Part shown: one piece after another, positions 7,917-28,840 of the stretch
How the letters are laid out: each line of letters opens with the position of its first letter
How positions within the stretch are numbered: the first letter of the stretch is position 1
From: Bacillota bacterium
GTDB lineage: Bacteria; Bacillota; SHA-98; Ch115; JABLXJ01
Direction: 5' to 3'
Assembly (NCBI GenBank): GCA_013178125.1
Contig: JABLXJ010000010.1
Coordinates: forward strand, 1 to 64,000
Length of the DNA stretch: 64,000 nucleotides
Translations under genes and position numbers: made by a program
The notes under the pieces: model-generated
What the model saw: only the letters and a program-made list of their open reading frames with translations
What the model was told of the DNA's origin: nothing
Database searches by the model: none

Positions 7917-8138
7917 TCAATCACGAGGCACGGAGCTACCACCTTGCTCTATCCACCCTATTAAGCGCGCCCTGGGTATCCGAATCGTTCGACCGATTCT
8001 TACCACAGGAAAATCTGGCTGACGACATATCTCATAAGCGGCAGAGCGGCCGATTCGGAGATATTTAGCAAGTTCATCTACAGTTAAAAACTCCATTTCT
8101 TGGTTGCTATCATTGCGGATGCATCTATCACTTTTCAT
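7917..8138 (-). CDS. Excisionase-like helix-turn-helix protein
   Basis: A 73-residue protein with the excisionase/MerR-type winged helix: TVDELAKYLRIGRSAAYEICRQPDFPVVRIGRTIRIPRARL, where the second helix and the Arg-rich wing contact DNA. The ATG at 8138 is chosen because GGGGAGG lies at 8155-8149 (10 nt); in-frame ATGs at 8147 and 8159 are too close to or upstream of that site. It is divergent from the XRE repressor and 1 kb from the integrase. That is the standard place for a recombination directionality factor, which would bend DNA at the attachment site and drive excision. It could also be a small transcription regulator of the same fold. Confidence 0.75.
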   Translation of the reverse strand: MKSDRCIRNDSNQEMEFLTVDELAKYLRIGRSAAYEICRQPDFPVVRIGRTIRIPRARLIGWIEQGGSSVPRD

Positions 8139-8328
8139 ACCATCCATTCCTCCCCGCATACGTTGATTTCATAGATCTCGACGTGAGCACCTCTTGTGAT
8201 GATTTGTGCCTCCATTTTTTATGCTATGCAGCAAATTCATCATCGTAAGAAAAACAAGCAAAAAAATTATAAAAATATTGCCATGATAGCAAAGTAATGC
8301 TATGCTAGCGATGGGGGTGATTTCCATC
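8139..8328. promoter_or_regulatory. Divergent control region with TGCTA half-sites
   Basis: AT-rich DNA between the excisionase-like gene and the XRE repressor. ATAGCA-aagtaa-TGCTAT at 8286-8303 is a perfect 6+6 inverted repeat, followed at once by another TGCTA (8303-8307), and TGCTATGCAGCA lies at 8223-8234. These repeated half-sites are good candidates for repressor operators that overlap the two promoters. Confidence 0.5.
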
Positions 8329-9039
8329 ATGAGGTTTGGCGGACGACTTCGCATAATGCGAAAACAGAGCGGCCTGAGGCTAGTTGATCTTGCCGAGAGG
8401 ACAGGATTATCGTATTCCTATCTATCGCAATTGGAAACGGGATCTAGGATTCGTCCTTCCGACAGTGTTCTTGAAGCCCTCGGGAGGGCACTGAATGTCC
8501 ACGTAGATGAATTGCGAGCCTGGGTAGAGGAAGATGTTCCCCGGGACCGAGTCGAGGATCTTAGGAGCTTGGCCGTTAGAAATATCAGATGGCTTGAAGA
8601 GATCTCTTCCGTACTGAGCGACGAGACCAGCATACAGAAGATAATAACGCGTTTCCTTGAGCAGGAATACTTAAAGGCCATCAAAAGTGCTACCAAAAAC
8701 CAAGGACTAAACGCTGACATAGGGCTTCTACTATCTGGGATATCCGCTCATCGCGAGGTCATCAAAGAAGAAATGGATGCGTCGGAGGAAAAAGGTCTGT
8801 CTGCAGATGTCGGCGAACCCATCATATCGATTCATGAATTTGTCCGCGAGCTTAAGCTGCTTAATGATAGACTAACACATCTAAATCGCTCAAAGGAGGT
8901 TGAAGAACTTGCTTTCGAAATTGAATCCTTAGGGGAAAGGGGCGTTGAATTCATCCGTGAACAGATCAAAATCGCGAAAAGGTACTTTGGGAAATCTCCA
9001 GCAAAAGAACTACCTGATGAGATTGGGGGCACGAATTAG
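8329..9039 (+). CDS. XRE-family repressor
   Basis: A 236-residue regulator. The N-terminal Cro/CI-type HTH (about residues 4-60: LRIMRKQSGLRLVDLAERTGLSYSYLSQLETGSR) is followed by a long helical, acidic C-terminal region with no recognised domain. ATG 8329 is chosen because GGGGGTGA (8313-8320) lies 8 nt upstream; the frame is open from 8302. Its stop codon overlaps the integrase GTG by one base (TAGTG), so repressor and integrase are cotranscribed and coupled. By position it is the lysogeny-type repressor of the island, acting on the divergent control region upstream. The C-terminal part carries no S24 peptidase motif, so RecA-linked self-cleavage is unlikely and an ImmA-type protease may be used. 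Confidence 0.8.
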   Translation: MRFGGRLRIMRKQSGLRLVDLAERTGLSYSYLSQLETGSRIRPSDSVLEALGRALNVHVDELRAWVEEDVPRDRVEDLRSLAVRNIRWLEEISSVLSDETSIQKIITRFLEQEYLKAIKSATKNQGLNADIGLLLSGISAHREVIKEEMDASEEKGLSADVGEPIISIHEFVRELKLLNDRLTHLNRSKEVEELAFEIESLGERGVEFIREQIKIAKRYFGKSPAKELPDEIGGTN

Positions 9040-10188
9040 TGAGAGGATACATAACGAAGCGGTCTAAGAACTCGTGGACCATCGTTTTGACAGTAGGACG
9101 CAAAGTCGATCCTAAAACTGGCAAGAGCAGGCCGGATCAGAAATGGATTACAGTAAGGGGTACGAAGAAGGAGGCAGAGGCCAAGCTGGCGGAACTTCTT
9201 CACCAGTACAACAGGGGAGAGCTCGTTGAGCCCACCAAGATGACAGTCGGAGAATGGCTGATCAGATGGCTCGACGTGTATGTCACGAATAGCAGCAAGA
9301 AGAAGTTCCGAACCCAAGAGACATATGCTTCCATAGTGAGGAACCATCTGATACCGGCCCTCGGGCACATTCGCCTCCAGAAACTTCAGCCTGCTGACAT
9401 CCAGGCTTATTACAACAATTCGGGTCTGTCTTCGTCAACGCTGGAGCAACACCATGCAGTACTCCACCAGGCTTTGAAGGTCGCCATGCAGAATGAGCGC
9501 CTTATCAACGTCAATCCTGCGGCTATGGTGGCTGAAAAACCGAAGGGCAAGAAGAATCTCGATATGCAGGTGTGGAGCGAGGAAGAGGTTCGTAGGTTCC
9601 TCTCAGCAGCAAGGAAGAGAGGAACACAGTGCGAGGCATTCTATACTATGGCACTGGAAACAGGCATGAGGAAAGGCGAGCTATGTGGTCTCAAGTGGGA
9701 GGACGTGGACCTCGAGAACCTGACAATTTCGGTTCGGCGTACACTCATCAAGGCGGGCCCTGACCCCGTCATGGGCACGCCAAAGACCGGCAGGGGCAGG
9801 GCGATTGCCATATCACCGGCACTAGCGAGGCTCCTGGCACGCCATAAGGCTGAACAGGAATCAGCAGCGCCTCAAGCTGGGTGTACTGTACCGTAACCTT
9901 GAATTCGTGTTTGCTAAGGAGACGGGGGAACCCCTCCAGATGAACAACTTTGGGCAGAGGGAGTTCGCCCAGCTAATAGAGGCTTCTGGGGTCAAGAAGA
10001 TCCGCTTCCATGACCTGCGTCATACATGTGCCACGCTCTTACTTGCCCGCGGGATGCACCCGAAAATCGTACAGGAAAGATTAGGCCATTCCAACATCAG
10101 CATGACGCTTGATCGGTACTCGCATGTGACGCCTACCATGCAAAGAGAAGCCGCCCAAGTCATGGGCGACATCCTCAATATACGCTGA
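9039..10188 (+). pseudogene. int: Tyrosine recombinase (integrase), frameshifted near 9861
   Basis: A phage/ICE-type tyrosine integrase of about 382 residues: N-terminal arm-binding domain (KRSKNSWTIVLTVG, AP2-like), SAM-like core-binding domain, and catalytic domain. The first frame (9039-9896) has the first catalytic Arg in ALETGMRKGELCGLKWEDVDL; the second (to 10188) has HDLRHTCATLLLARG (HxxR) and the Tyr nucleophile in LDRYSHV. Removing one T at about 9861 joins them as AEQEQQRLKLGVLYRNLEF, so a +1 insertion breaks the gene. The GTG start overlaps the repressor stop. The gene ends about 70 nt from the 3' end of tRNA-Leu, the expected insertion site. If the lesion is real, the island can no longer excise without help. 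Confidence 0.85.
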
Positions 10189-10258
10189 TTAGCAAATGAT
10201 TAGCAAGTGCCCTCTTGGAATCCTTCAAACCCGCACCAAATAAGCCTTTGTACATATT

Positions 10259-10347
10259 TGGTGCCGAAGCGGGGATTTGAACCCCGACGGCCGTTAATGG
10301 CCACTAGACCCTGAATCTAGCGCGTCTGCCATTTCCGCCACTTCGGC
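10259..10347 (-). tRNA. tRNA-Leu (CAG)
   Basis: A type II tRNA with acceptor stem GCCGAAG/CTTCGGC, D arm GCGGAAATGGCAGACGCG, anticodon loop TTCAGGG with CAG, long variable arm GGCCATTAACGGCC and T arm CGGGG-TTCAAAT-CCCCG, discriminator A and encoded CCA. The 3' end faces the integrase, so this is the probable integration site of the island to its left. Confidence 0.97.
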
Positions 10348-10792: not shown

Positions 10793-12394
10793 CTATCGTT
10801 TAGCAGGACGGTCCCCAAAGCTCGCGATCATAGATTCTAGCTCTTTCGCTACGGCTATCAAGGTCCTCGCTGAGCTGCTGATGTTCTCGACCGAAGCGCT
10901 CACCTCCTCAGCAGAAGCAGCTATCTCCTCGGCCGCGCTTGCCGTTTCCTCGGATATCGCTGAAACCTGTTTCACAGCATCGCGGACCTTGGCGCTGCTC
11001 TCAGCCATCTCCTGTGCGAAGACTGCATTCTCTTCGGCGGTATCCTCAACGTTGCTCACCGCCTCGACAACCTTTCCTCCGTTGAGGGAGAGCTTCTTTG
11101 CCGCTTCGGAGATGCCCTTGATCTCGTTATTCGTTACCTGCATTGCCCCCACTATGCTCTCAAGCGCCTCCCCGGCGCGTGCTGCGAGCTCGCTTCCCTT
11201 ATTGACCTCATTTGTGCCTGATTCCATAGCCTCTATAACGACATCCGTTCCTTTGCGGATATTACCTATTATCGCACCGATCTCCTTGGTGGAATTGCTC
11301 GATCGCTGGGCAAGCTTCCGCACTTCATCAGCAACCACAGCAAAGCCCCGACCATGGTCCCCAGCCCTGGCAGCCTCAATGGCGGCGTTGAGGGCCAGGA
11401 GGTTGGTCTGGTCTGCGATGAGGCTTATGACCTGCAGGATCTCGCCGATCTGCTTGGAATGTTCGCCCAGTTCCCTGACCTTTTGCGCGGCCTCCAGGAC
11501 CGTTGACCGGATCTGGTCCATGCCCTCCACTGTAGCCTTAACTGTTTCCTGCCCGACGCTCGCAGCTTTAAACGCCTCATCTGCAGCCCGGGCCACCCGC
11601 TCTGCATGTGCTGCCACGTCCTCAATCATCTTGGACATGTTCTTTATGGTCTCAGATACTTCATGTGTGCTCTCGGATTGCTCCTGGGCTGTGGAGGCGA
11701 TTTTATCTATTATAACCTTCAGCTCATCCATGAGCTTGACCGTATCCGTCGTATGCTTGGCTTGATCCGATGTGCCCTTTGCCACTCCTTCGATAGCCTC
11801 GGCAATCTGGGAGGCGGCCTGGGATGCCTGGTCAGCCGAGTTGGCCAGGGCATTCACATTGGAGATCACCTTGTCAGTTGCGCTCCTGGCGTTGTCAATC
11901 AAACCGTACAAGCTTGCGGCCACCTCGCTGAACGCCGCCGCGAGCTCCCCTGGAGCTCCCCCTGGGGCCCCCATCCCCTCTCCCTTCAGCTCCTTTCCCT
12001 TCGGCCCCTTCGGCGCGCCCACCTTTACGCGCCCTGCAGAGTCTAATTGCTCTGCCAAGTCCAATTTACACTCCCCGGAAACAAGCTTATGGGCTAGCTG
12101 GACCGCCTGGCTGGCTATGCTCGCCGCCTCTCTCTTCAAGAGAAAGATGATACCAATCAAAAGAACGAGGGCTGCAGGTACCAGCGCATAGATGAGCTGG
12201 CGCGCGCGGATGATATTGGCGAGACTTGCCTCGAGGCCAGTTCCGTCAGGCCCGGTAGCTTCCCCCCCGGGAATTCCGGAAAGCGCACCGATCGCAGAGT
12301 TCAAATTGGCTACAGCAAGGTAACCTATAAGGGCCGTTACAACAATGAAGAGAATAATTCCTACTATAAGTTTTAAATTCCTTTGCAGATCCAC
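10793..12394 (-). CDS. Methyl-accepting chemotaxis protein
   Basis: A receptor of 533 residues from GTG 12394. Two membrane segments (about residues 7-28 and 68-90) enclose only some 40 residues, so there is almost no external sensor domain. A short HAMP-like linker with a Gly/Pro-rich insert leads to a long coiled-coil signalling domain with the conserved hairpin tip ([40 protein letters not shown]) that contacts CheA and CheW. GTG 12394 follows GGGGG at 7 nt; the frame is open to TTG 12520, but that start has no ribosome-binding site and lies inside an operator-like repeat. It may sense cytoplasmic or membrane cues. No other chemotaxis genes are nearby. Confidence 0.88.
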
Positions 12395-12514
12395 CCCAAG
12401 ACCCCCATTCCGTTCTCCAGTACTCCAGTACTTCGTTTCATAAGTTCTGGTCACAAGTTCTGATAGTCTTTGCTCCCCGAGTATGCGCCTAAGTATGCGC
12501 CCAAACATGCACAG

Positions 12515-12670
12515 TGACAACTTTCTTGGCAGGTCACGCGCAGGGGTGCCAAATTTATGGGCAGTTACTCACCCGTCCTGCCAAGAATCTTGGCAGAGTG
12601 CCCCGACAAAGAGGCGAAGGTGGCAACTTTCTTGGCAGAGTGGTGGAGCAGCCTGCCAAGTTTCTTTGCA
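12515..12670. promoter_or_regulatory. Array of five 17-bp palindromes upstream of the chemotaxis receptor
   Basis: Five copies of TGCCAAG-TTT-CTTGGCA-like palindromes begin at 12515, 12547, 12579, 12621 and 12654 (copy 3 is perfect: TGCCAAGAATCTTGGCA). Start-to-start distances are 32, 32, 42 and 33 nt, close to whole turns of B-DNA. The array ends about 120 nt upstream of the receptor's GTG. It is a likely set of binding sites for a dimeric regulator. Confidence 0.65.
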
Positions 12671-13041
12671 GACCCTTATACCGCGCCTCATACCGCATAA
12701 GCGGCACCATCTGAGAATGAAAACGGCTTTAGCTGTGGTAATGCTTATTTTCAGGGCGGACCTCCATGCCGCGCTGCGGCGTCACAGAAAGTGAAAATAT
12801 CCCTGGAAGCAATTGGGTTATTTTCAGGCTAAACTCGGGCGCTTCTCTATCCAATCTCTTTCTTTCTTATATCGGCATATTCAGAAACTAACTTAAGCAG
12901 TCGAAGAGAGTTTTCCAATAATTTTTGGGTAAAACTATCAACGAATATCAATTCCATGAATCATCGTCAATAGATTATCGATCACCGGTTTAAGAGATTA
13001 GGATCATCTATTCAAGGAATCGATGGGGGACCCATACCTGT
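12671..13041. other. Gene-free AT-rich stretch
   Basis: No convincing gene, RNA or terminator is visible. Short frames here lack ribosome-binding sites. It probably holds divergent promoters for the chemotaxis receptor and the amidase-domain gene. Confidence 0.5.
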
Positions 13042-14511
13042 ATGCAGGGCAAGGATAACTCAAGGCGAATATCCCCAGTTGTCATCCTATCGCTGTTGCT
13101 TCTCATTATCCTGGGCCTAACGGCAACGAAAATTCTTGAAACACGCAGGTCAAAGATGCCGCCGCTGCAGCCCGAGGTGGTCATCCCGGGGAGGTTATCC
13201 CGCCGCGGGCTCACCCGCGATCTCGCCGCCACTATCGTGGCTATGTTTGATAAGAGGGCTGACGCCCTGGTCGAGGGGAAACCTGGGTCGATTGATGATA
13301 TTTATAGCCCTAGCAGGGGCCGCGACGAGGGGTCTCCCGCCGTGGAGGGAACCCCCTCCGGTGGAAATCACGGCGAAAATGGCAATGGCGAGTCAGAGGG
13401 CGGGGCGGGAAGTTGCGGTGATAATAAAGCCCTGCAACATGAAATGCGCCGCATCAGATATGTCACTGCCTGGGCCGCCAAGCGTGGCGTCCGTTTCACC
13501 GGCTCCGATGTGTATCTCCAGATACACGACATGGAGGCCAGGGGAGATGTCATCCTCCTGAATGTGTGGCAAAGCTTGAACCTAAAGTATACCTATGCAG
13601 AGACCCGCGAGGCCCGCACGGGAGCCGCAGCTGCCGTAGAGGCCGCAGCGCGGGGCAAGCAGAGAGGCTCCGGCGCCTTCGGCATTAGGACGAGGCACAC
13701 ATTGGAGCTCGTGCGGGCCGCAAATGGTAAGTGGCTTATCCTCAAGGATGAATACACCGACCCGCTCGGCGAGGATACCCTTGTCCCCGAGGTGGCGCCG
13801 GCTATGATGCCCGCGCCGACCGCAGCCTCGTCTGCGGCATCCGCCCCAGGCACAACGCCCGCACCAGCCACCTCACTCGCGATGGCCATATCACCTATGG
13901 GGGCCACATTATCTGCACCTGCCTGGAACCAGGGCCGCAGCGGGTCCTATGACCGACGTTACGACCGGCGGGCCGCAGTGGCCTACGCAAACAAGTATTG
14001 CGGCGTAAAGACGGGCGCGAAGGCAAGGGAAGGGAAGGAATTCGGATATAACCCGCGGTACAAGGACTACACAGACCTGGGCGGGGACTGCACAAACTTT
14101 ATATCCCAGGTGCTTGGCGATAGAGAAGGCGGCCGGCTCCCGATGGATGATGTATGGTACTATGATTTCTCCGCCGGCGACGGCGGGAAAGGGTCCAGCG
14201 CGTGGACGGAAACGGAGGCATTCAGGGACTATCTATTGGGCAGCGGGATCGCGAAGTGCCTGGCGCGGGGCGACTATTATGGCGTCACGCGCCAGACCAA
14301 GAAATTTCCGCGCGGGGTTATAAACGAGCTCAGGGAGGGCGACCTGATCGCTTACGAGGAGAAGGGCGATATCCAGCACTTTGCCGTCGTCGTGGGCCGG
14401 GACTCCGCCGGCTATACCCTGGTCAACAGCCACACCGCCGATCGATACCGCGTCCCGTGGGACCTCGGCTGGGACAGGAAGACGATCTTCTGGCTCTTGA
14501 AGATCCTATAA
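13042..14511 (+). CDS. Membrane-anchored Amidase_6-type cell-wall protein
   Basis: A 489-residue protein with an N-terminal membrane segment (about 12-30), a middle domain that includes a SnoaL-like/DUF-type mixed region, an Ala/Pro/Thr-rich linker (about 250-295), and a C-terminal putative amidase domain (about 305-489). The domain shows YDRRAAVAYANKYC, a GGDCTNFISQVL motif with the catalytic Cys, and HFAVVVGRDSAGYTLVNSHT with a catalytic His, as in CHAP/NlpC-like Amidase_6 proteins. It probably acts on peptidoglycan peptides outside the cell. ATG 13042 lies 11 nt after GGGGGA; the site is modest. Many Bacillota carry such proteins in sporulation or envelope roles. It stands alone, with no operon partner. 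Confidence 0.78.
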   Translation: MQGKDNSRRISPVVILSLLLLIILGLTATKILETRRSKMPPLQPEVVIPGRLSRRGLTRDLAATIVAMFDKRADALVEGKPGSIDDIYSPSRGRDEGSPAVEGTPSGGNHGENGNGESEGGAGSCGDNKALQHEMRRIRYVTAWAAKRGVRFTGSDVYLQIHDMEARGDVILLNVWQSLNLKYTYAETREARTGAAAAVEAAARGKQRGSGAFGIRTRHTLELVRAANGKWLILKDEYTDPLGEDTLVPEVAPAMMPAPTAASSAASAPGTTPAPATSLAMAISPMGATLSAPAWNQGRSGSYDRRYDRRAAVAYANKYCGVKTGAKAREGKEFGYNPRYKDYTDLGGDCTNFISQVLGDREGGRLPMDDVWYYDFSAGDGGKGSSAWTETEAFRDYLLGSGIAKCLARGDYYGVTRQTKKFPRGVINELREGDLIAYEEKGDIQHFAVVVGRDSAGYTLVNSHTADRYRVPWDLGWDRKTIFWLLKIL

Positions 14512-26901: not shown

Positions 26902-27384
26902 ATGGCTGCAATTGGCATGTTCCTCGCCATCATCCTCTTCATCCTCGGGCTCGCGGGTACGGTGCTGCCTGTGTTGCCCGGGGCGCCCCTAATATGGCTT
27001 GGAATACTCATATATGGCCTCTTTACGGGCTTCGCGAAGCTATCCCTTCTCTTTTATCTTGGACAAGGCCTCGCCGTCCTGCTCACCGTGCTGGTCGACT
27101 ATGCGGGCACGGCATACGGGGCGCGGAGATATGGCGGCTCGCGCGCAGCGATCTGGGGGAGCGCAGCTGGCATCTCCGTGGCGCCTATATTCATGGGCGT
27201 GCCAGGGTTCATAATCGGCCCTTTCCTGGGGGCGTTCATCGCCGAGGCCCTGGCAGGGCGTCCTATTAACCCGGCTTTTCGAGCAGCCTTCGGGACCCTG
27301 ATCGGCCTCGTCGGGTCCACCATCCTCAAACTCGGCATCGAAATAGGGATGATAGTCTGGTTCTACTGGACCGTCCTCAGGTGA
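26902..27384 (+). CDS. DUF456 membrane protein
   Basis: A 160-residue protein with four or five membrane segments, rich in Gly, Ala and Leu. The pattern GTVLPVLPGAPLIWLGILIYG followed by DYAGTAYGARRYGGSRAAIWG and FIIGPFLGAFIAE is the signature of the DUF456 family. ATG 26902 follows GAGGAGT at 7 nt; the longer frame from 26824 adds 26 residues that do not fit the family. Its function is unknown. It is transcribed away from the broken ATPase gene and is not in an operon. Confidence 0.85.
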   Translation: MAAIGMFLAIILFILGLAGTVLPVLPGAPLIWLGILIYGLFTGFAKLSLLFYLGQGLAVLLTVLVDYAGTAYGARRYGGSRAAIWGSAAGISVAPIFMGVPGFIIGPFLGAFIAEALAGRPINPAFRAAFGTLIGLVGSTILKLGIEIGMIVWFYWTVLR

Positions 27385-27496
27385 TTAGATCAGACCAGGC
27401 TGGGCCTCAGATTGAGACTGGGCTCGAGACCGGGCCTTAGGTAAGGTTGCTTCTCAGGTAAGGTTGGGCCGGGGGCGAAGCCCGACCCTCAACTGC

Positions 27497-28840
27497 TTAA
27501 TTACTTAACAGAGCCGGGAAGAGGCTCAGGATGAACCATGCCACCGTGAGCCCGATCAGGCACACGACCGTTATCCAAGCAATAAGGTTGAAGAACGGCG
27601 AATTTACATGCTGTCCCATGATCCTCCGGCTGTTTACAAGCTTCAACATGAAGATGAGGATCACCGGCAGGAGTATCCCGTTTACCTCCTGCGAGCGCAA
27701 CATCACCTTCATGAGCGAAGTGCCGGGCAGAAGCACCACCACGGCGCCGATGGCTATGAGCGCCGTGAAGAGCGAGAAAAAGATGGGCGCCTCTCTAAAT
27801 TCATTATCGATCCCGCTTTCCCAGCCGAAGGCCTCGCATACGGCGTAGGCCGTGGAGAGAGGGAGCACGGCCGCAGCCAGGGCAGATGCGCCGAAGAGAC
27901 CGATTGAAAAGAGGTAAGTGCTATACCTCCCCGCCAGGGGCGCCAACGCCAGCGCGGCATCCTTCGCCGTTTCTATGGGGATCCCTGCTCGAAAGAGTGT
28001 AGCTCCTGTCGACACAATTATGAAGAAGGAGATGAAGTCGGTCCAGAACGCGCCGAAGAGCACGTCGAGCTTCTCGTATCGATAATGTGAGATCGTTATT
28101 CCCTTATCCACGACGGTTGCCTGTATGAAGAACTGCATCCACGGCGTTATGGTCGTGCCTATTGTTGCTATGAAAAGGAGCATAAACCCGGGCTCCACCT
28201 TGAACGTCGGCACCAGCATCCCTCGCGTGACTTCGCTCCAATCCGGCCGGGCCATGAAGCCTGATGCTACATAGCCCGCGAAGGTAAGTGCGAAGAGAAG
28301 CAGGAACCGCTCAACCGCCTTATATGACCCCTTTACCACGAGCCCCCAGAGCATGACCGCGATGAGCGGCACGGAGACATATTTGGGCACCCCGAATATC
28401 TCCATGCTCGCCGCTATGCCAGCGAACTCGGCTGCGCAGGTTGCTACATTGGCCACGAGCAGCACGAGCATGGCGAAGAAGGTCCACCGGACCCCAAATT
28501 CCTCGCGGATGAGGTCTGATAGCCCCTTGCCCGTGACAGCCCCCATGCGTGCGCCCATTTCCTGGACTATGGCGAGGCTGACGGTTATGAGGATGATCAT
28601 CCAGAGCAGGCTGTAGCCCTCGCGCGCCCCTACGATGGCATAGGTTGCGATCCCACCCGCATCGTTGTCCGCCGTGGCGGTAAGCAGGCCAGGACCCATG
28701 ATGGAGAGGAATATCGCGACCTGTCGCTTCAGCCTTTGAAGAGAACCCTGAAACCATTTTGCACGATCCGCTACTGTCTCCCATAGTGCCATTGCCTTCC
28801 ACAACCCCATCACCGGTCCTTTCCGCGCGAAAAGCGCCAT
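27497..28840 (-). CDS. Nramp-family metal transporter with non-canonical metal site
   Basis: A 447-residue membrane protein with about eleven helices. The first helix has TATADNDAGGIATY where classical Nramp has DPGN, and helix 6 has GTTITPWMQFF where classical Nramp has the (A)xxMPH metal-binding methionine. Absence of that methionine argues against the usual Mn/Fe selectivity; Nramp-related magnesium transporters (NRMT) show changes at the same sites. The gene follows, on the same strand, a soluble MgtE-type sensor protein, which again hints at Mg2+. The first 30 residues are hydrophilic, and a later ATG at residue 11 could also be the start. Confidence 0.88.
   Translation of the reverse strand: MALFARKGPVMGLWKAMALWETVADRAKWFQGSLQRLKRQVAIFLSIMGPGLLTATADNDAGGIATYAIVGAREGYSLLWMIILITVSLAIVQEMGARMGAVTGKGLSDLIREEFGVRWTFFAMLVLLVANVATCAAEFAGIAASMEIFGVPKYVSVPLIAVMLWGLVVKGSYKAVERFLLLFALTFAGYVASGFMARPDWSEVTRGMLVPTFKVEPGFMLLFIATIGTTITPWMQFFIQATVVDKGITISHYRYEKLDVLFGAFWTDFISFFIIVSTGATLFRAGIPIETAKDAALALAPLAGRYSTYLFSIGLFGASALAAAVLPLSTAYAVCEAFGWESGIDNEFREAPIFFSLFTALIAIGAVVVLLPGTSLMKVMLRSQEVNGILLPVILIFMLKLVNSRRIMGQHVNSPFFNLIAWITVVCLIGLTVAWFILSLFPALLSN

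Follow-up and report, generated by a model that had tools for sequence, protein, structure and literature searches.

Five short palindromes stand at regular intervals ahead of a gene for a methyl-accepting chemotaxis protein (mcp) in a 64-kb stretch of a Bacillota genome, referred to here as the window, which raises the question of whether they form an operator of that gene or belong to something that is not particular to it. The sites follow the pattern TGCCAA-N5-TTGGCA, are 17 bp long with at most one mismatch each, and lie at start-to-start distances of 32, 32, 42 and 33 bp. A first-pass annotation had placed them at 12515, 12547, 12579, 12621 and 12654, all of which are exact, and had described the third copy as perfect and the other four as imperfect, which agrees with the single mismatch that each of these carries over the 12 arm positions. 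No other site with one mismatch or fewer occurs in the window, for which a Markov-1 model predicts 0.19. Tandem repeat callers miss the array because its spacers differ. The features of the region are the following:

10796..12394, minus strand: mcp, methyl-accepting chemotaxis protein (Pfam MCPsignal, E 1.2e-50; start placed via the same-genus genome G001)
12449..12474, plus strand: left-end module, 4 mismatches to the consensus TTTCATAAGTCCTGATAGTCTTTGCT, 41 bp from the array
12515..12531, no strand: site 1, TGACAACTTTCTTGGCA, 1 mismatch
12547..12563, no strand: site 2, TGCCAAATTTATGGGCA, 1 mismatch
12579..12595, no strand: site 3, TGCCAAGAATCTTGGCA, perfect arms
12621..12637, no strand: site 4, TGGCAACTTTCTTGGCA, 1 mismatch
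12654..12670, no strand: site 5, TGCCAAGTTTCTTTGCA, 1 mismatch, the usual terminal variant of the arrays of this genome
12532..12620, no strand: spacers of 15, 15 and 25 bp, which resemble those of other arrays (ggtcacgcgcagggg, gttactcacccgtcc, gagtgccccgac and others)
13042..14511, plus strand: amidase-domain-like gene, named by inspection only, on the other flank, 371 bp from the array

Some further elements are present in the window. At 12690-12830 there is a second interspersed repeat (gcggcacca...gaatgaaaa...tattttcagg), which occurs beside or inside several arrays, being found also at loci L053 and L056 and within the array of L047. Positions 7917-10347 hold the end of an integrated element, with frames for an Xre-type regulator, an excisionase-like protein and a tyrosine integrase that is seemingly split in two (9039-9896 and 9907-10188), and this element ends beside tRNA-Leu(CAG) at 10259-10347. 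A tmRNA gene (ARAGORN, starred) lies on the minus strand at 27008-27554.

A dispersed modular repeat

The window array belongs to a modular intergenic repeat that is dispersed over the genome and has a BOX-like architecture. A search allowing one mismatch gives 104 sites in the genome of the window (G000; 3.48 Mb, 54 contigs) and 4 for a reversed control pattern; nearly all of the 104 fall into approximately 16 intergenic arrays, whose neighbouring genes are unrelated. The genome-wide search that the first-pass annotation had proposed returns mostly clusters and not random single sites. The first set of array loci accounts for 89 of the 104; further arrays, on contigs C18 and C5, came from a sequence model. 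Set in one orientation, the arrays have spacers, terminal sites and end modules in common, and the full form consists of 2-11 palindromic 17-bp sites flanked by a left and a right module. Of 15 arrays, 6, including the window array, are preceded by the left module at a distance of 17-57 bp, and 5-6 have the right module (GACGTAACAGGTCCGGCGCAGAGCT) close behind them; in the array loci examined in this genome, neither module turned up elsewhere except as weak matches. Internal units repeat every ~105 bp (32+32+41/42), and the smallest copy, at L048, consists of both ends and two sites.

A close architectural counterpart is the BOX element of Streptococcus pneumoniae, in which two end modules flank variable internal units and which is suspected to be a parasite mobilised in trans (PMC3049150). 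Like BOX, the arrays are multi-copy, dispersed, intergenic and variable in position, with end modules and a varying number of internal units, the likeness being one of architecture. However, BOX is predicted to form RNA stem-loops, whereas the arrays consist of helically phased palindromic sites of a protein-binding type whose folding is not conserved, and, unlike BOX, they occur in several taxonomic families while their sequence drifts. Literature searches found no described element of this form, in line with what the first-pass annotation had asserted.

Relatives and helical phasing

Arrays are also found in three relatives: at least 11 in G001 (same genus, AS04akNAM_80), at least 19, with up to 19 sites each, in G003 (same order, another family), and 15 in G009 (same class, a third family; Firmicutes bacterium UBA6811). 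The site letters drift, from TGCCAA in G000 to TGGCGA, TGACGA and TGGCTA in G003 and mixtures in G009, and what is fixed across genomes is the core TGnCnA-N5-TnGnCA together with a ladder of spacings. When 37 three-site units drawn from three genomes are aligned, the invariant columns number 13, and every one of them falls on a core position (TG.C...G.C) of a site, a conservation that is inflated because the units were chosen by similarity to the site. The two-site pattern TGNC-N9-GNCA-N15-TGNC-N9-GNCA has 38, 11, 110 and 62 matches in G000, G001, G003 and G009, respectively, where ~0.2 per genome are expected.

The ladder follows the helical repeat of B-DNA. Across the four genomes, neighbouring exact-core sites are separated by 31-33, 41-43, 52, 62-64, 73-74, 84, 93-95, 104-106 or 125-127 bp, with few off-phase spacings (36, 40 and 109 bp). 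The best-fit period is 10.55 bp in G000, 10.40 bp in G001, 10.45 bp in G003 and 10.40 bp in G009, with a resultant length R of 0.89-0.95; in G009, the genome with the widest variety of spacings, a period of 10.5 bp gives an R of 0.95, versus 0.72 for 10.0 and 0.62 for 11.0. The claim that the five sites lie on one face of the helix is thus upheld, and the same geometry recurs in all four genomes. Part of the regularity is inherited by duplication, as the units within a genome are paralogous (e.g., the ~105-bp units of G000), but duplication is unlikely to be its whole cause, since the multiples differ between genomes (31.5, 63 and 126 bp in G003; 52, 84 and 116 bp in G009).

A GTDB-wide exact scan gave 30 loci, with a multi-site array by site count only in UBA6811 and a related pair in AS04akNAM_80, and most of the other loci are single chance sites. 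Across the phylum, TTGGCA-N15-TGCCAA with one mismatch is at background level in most genomes and is uninformative, and no matches were present in the known plasmids, phages and viral contigs searched. The geometry pattern does appear in f63, a different family of the same phylum, with 14, 11, 7 and 3 matches in four genomes. The f63 genomes G092, G186, G257 and G210 (loci L243-L256) contain short dispersed TGNC-N9-GNCA arrays at 32-33 bp, which in G186 follow multiples of 32 bp. Their letters differ (TGTCGA, TGCCGG, TGTCCA), the arrays are shorter or more irregular, and the likeness is one of geometry. By the tests used, several genomes of the same class lack arrays entirely or nearly so, and the element is thus dispensable.

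Two neighbouring sequences were seen in passing. A second type of phased palindrome array, with the 12-bp TGACGTACGTCA every 30-31 bp, adjoins a TGnCnA array in two families (L055:5624-5914 in G000 and L187:3299-3461 in G003); its half-sites are also TGNC/GNCA, with a shorter centre than that of the TGnCnA sites. In addition, L055:5471-5510 in G000 is a single CRISPR-like repeat (GTCGCGCCCCACGCGGGCGCGTGGATTGAAAC), of which G001 has more than 30 copies at C119:76275-78559.

Double-stranded sites or folded RNA

Palindromes of this kind could also be read as an array of structured RNA or DNA hairpins, that is, as transcribed stem-loops, terminators or cruciforms. Every site is able to form a short hairpin, and some arrays fold better than their shuffles (z −5.1 and −3.7 at L054, and −2.5 for the minus strand of the window). 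The arrays of G003, in contrast, fold no better than shuffles (z −0.4 and −0.3), and within sites of a set of three genomes arm covariation was detected at no position, with changes on both sides no commoner than in shuffles and arm complementarity even below expectation at some positions. Furthermore, no Rfam covariance model matches the arrays up to E 1, and RNA hairpins would not need a 10.5-bp phasing. A hairpin array was therefore rejected and is extremely improbable. REP/BIME sequences likewise resemble the arrays in being clustered palindromic repeats outside genes, often just past stop codons, and several arrays indeed start 13-18 bp past one. The conserved pairing of a REP hairpin is, however, not seen in these short, phased, protein-type palindromes.

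With neither arm covariation nor a conserved RNA fold, the sites have the appearance of places where a dimeric protein binds double-stranded DNA. Such a protein would be expected to select just this arrangement, with symmetric half-sites that are conserved independently of each other and fall on a 10.5-bp ladder.

Neighbouring genes

The position of the window array initially points to mcp. Although the open frame of the gene extends to 12520, comparison with the 91%-identical mcp of G001 puts its conserved start at a GTG at ~12394, so that the array is located ~120-275 bp upstream, in a divergent intergenic region. A dimeric regulator controlling mcp, or other adjacent genes, cooperatively through an operator array would be compatible with this location. 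The remaining arrays speak otherwise. Both neighbours could be classified for 48 arrays: the flanking genes are tandem in 22 cases, convergent in 16 and divergent in 10. One array sits inside the gap of the selD-selA operon. Neighbours have no common function: the 79 adjoining proteins match 156 Pfam families, none of which is represented in more than two proteins. The arrays are thus neither gathered at promoters of functionally related genes nor conserved at orthologues, as the operators of a regulon would be.

The first-pass annotation was right that the array is upstream of a chemotaxis receptor, but a special link to it finds no support, as this is one of ~16 arrays, the others having unrelated neighbours that are often convergent. 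It had itself named absence from the mcp upstream regions of close relatives as grounds for giving up such a link, and no site is present upstream of mcp in G001. With this absence, the promoter-neutral placement and the unrelated neighbours, an mcp operator was rejected, and control of adjacent genes in general is very improbable.

Turnover and mobility

Positions of the arrays turn over within the genus, as those of BOX do. Three array positions of G000, namely upstream of mcp, on the prfB side and in the selD-selA gap, have no site in G001. At the mcp locus, G001 retains a weak match to the left module (6/26 mismatches), and for this reason loss of the array in G001 is as possible as gain in G000.

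Such turnover is also what would be seen if the repeat were a purely selfish, MITE-like element, whose phased sites bind a mobilising transposase or an element-borne protein with no benefit to the host. This is the strongest of the rival explanations, and a serious possibility even though it is unlikely to be the correct one. It is favoured by the empty positions in G001, by contigs often breaking at arrays, as they do at repeats, and by G003, in which an 825-bp array-bearing unit occurs at two loci with 99.8% identity and abrupt ends. G003 also contains a ~118-bp MITE-like repeat with inverted ends (CCTAGGARATTGCTCGRAAAC; L234:2530-2660, L235:2640-2770 and L236:3230-3350). The right end of the duplicated unit is an internally shortened copy of this repeat, and because the ends of the unit resemble its inverted ends, one G003 copy must have been moved or copied as a composite.

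Against a purely selfish element, the 79 neighbouring proteins show no enrichment of transposases by Pfam, most copies are diverged and not recent, and no target duplication was demonstrated, the flanks being diverged. A Y1/RAYT transposase is absent from G000, G001 and G003, which also led to the rejection of a RAYT-driven REP. Transposase ends are not known to carry as many phased sites as the arrays, which have up to 12-19.

Partition proteins

An array of sites for a partition or nucleoid-occlusion protein of the ParB/Noc type, i.e., a set of dispersed centromere-like sites, is suggested by the likeness to sopC (parS-F) of the F plasmid, which is composed of twelve 43-bp repeats with 16-bp inverted repeats and is covered by SopB/ParB-F (PMC6238139). 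There too, inverted-repeat sites are placed in regular repeats (~4 turns in sopC), and the dimeric protein forms a nucleoprotein cluster. ParB-family genes are also present in 16 of 17 same-class genomes searched, nearly all as a parB/noc-like pair. Nevertheless, sopC is a single array per plasmid beside the par operon, whereas the arrays here are ~16, chromosomal and without linked par genes, with another site length and with spacings of 3, 4 and 5 turns.

In G000, canonical parS (TGTTNCACGTGAAACA) adjoins parB, on contig C5 only, and ParB itself is therefore probably not the binder; the arrays lie elsewhere and have another sequence, on account of which identity with parS was rejected. Only 1 of the ~16 arrays is on C5, and a clustering near the origin was not demonstrated. 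Genomes that lack arrays have the parB/noc-like pair just as well, and additional ParB_N proteins do not co-occur with arrays in the 17 genomes (G009 has none), which leaves an array-linked ParB paralogue without support. The Noc binding sites (NBS) of Bacillus, which are scattered and 16 bp long (PMC8429893, PMC4331003), are likewise dispersed chromosomal palindromes of Bacillota bound by a dimeric protein, but they differ in sequence and do not form clustered, phased arrays. The 17-bp TGnC-N9-GnCA site is unlike both parS and NBS, and a ParB/Noc-type array is on the whole quite improbable.

Concluding remarks

The explanation that we favour, and consider probable though far from certain, is a dispersed BOX-like repeat carrying helically phased binding arrays for a putative conserved dimeric DNA-binding protein. 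Dimers of this one sequence-specific protein would bind each site on double-stranded DNA, and dimers on the same face would touch their neighbours, so that a filament or cluster of nucleoprotein would form locally, much as with SopB/ParB-F on sopC. The binder appears to be conserved in several families, since core and phasing are kept through changes in spacers, in array length, in genomic position and in the site letters at positions 3, 5, 13 and 15. The repeat family, its modularity and phasing, the lack of arm covariation, the promoter-neutral placement and the turnover of positions are observed, and from there we infer the protein, its oligomerisation and its role. The cooperative dimer or nucleoprotein scaffold proposed in the first-pass annotation remains the best reading, albeit not as a regulator specific to mcp. 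The role would probably lie in genome organisation, or in tolerance of the repeat itself, and not in the regulation of adjacent genes.

A wider and more speculative version, which we hold to be rather doubtful, is a hitherto undescribed chromatin-like system used by the host within Bacillota, in which a putative family of dimeric proteins builds same-face filaments on dispersed TGnC-type arrays, with the site letters co-evolving with the protein in each lineage and the 10.5-bp ladder being kept; the geometry in f63 and the TGACGTACGTCA arrays would then be included.

Dispersed intergenic repeats are common, and it is the conserved helical phase that sets the present one apart. A repeat that keeps its dimer sites in helical phase across families, while its sequence and position drift, suggests that something reads its geometry. 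A probe of the array, together with a test of its spacing, would provide a handle on the putative nucleoprotein, which may either organise the chromosome or serve a selfish element as its partner.
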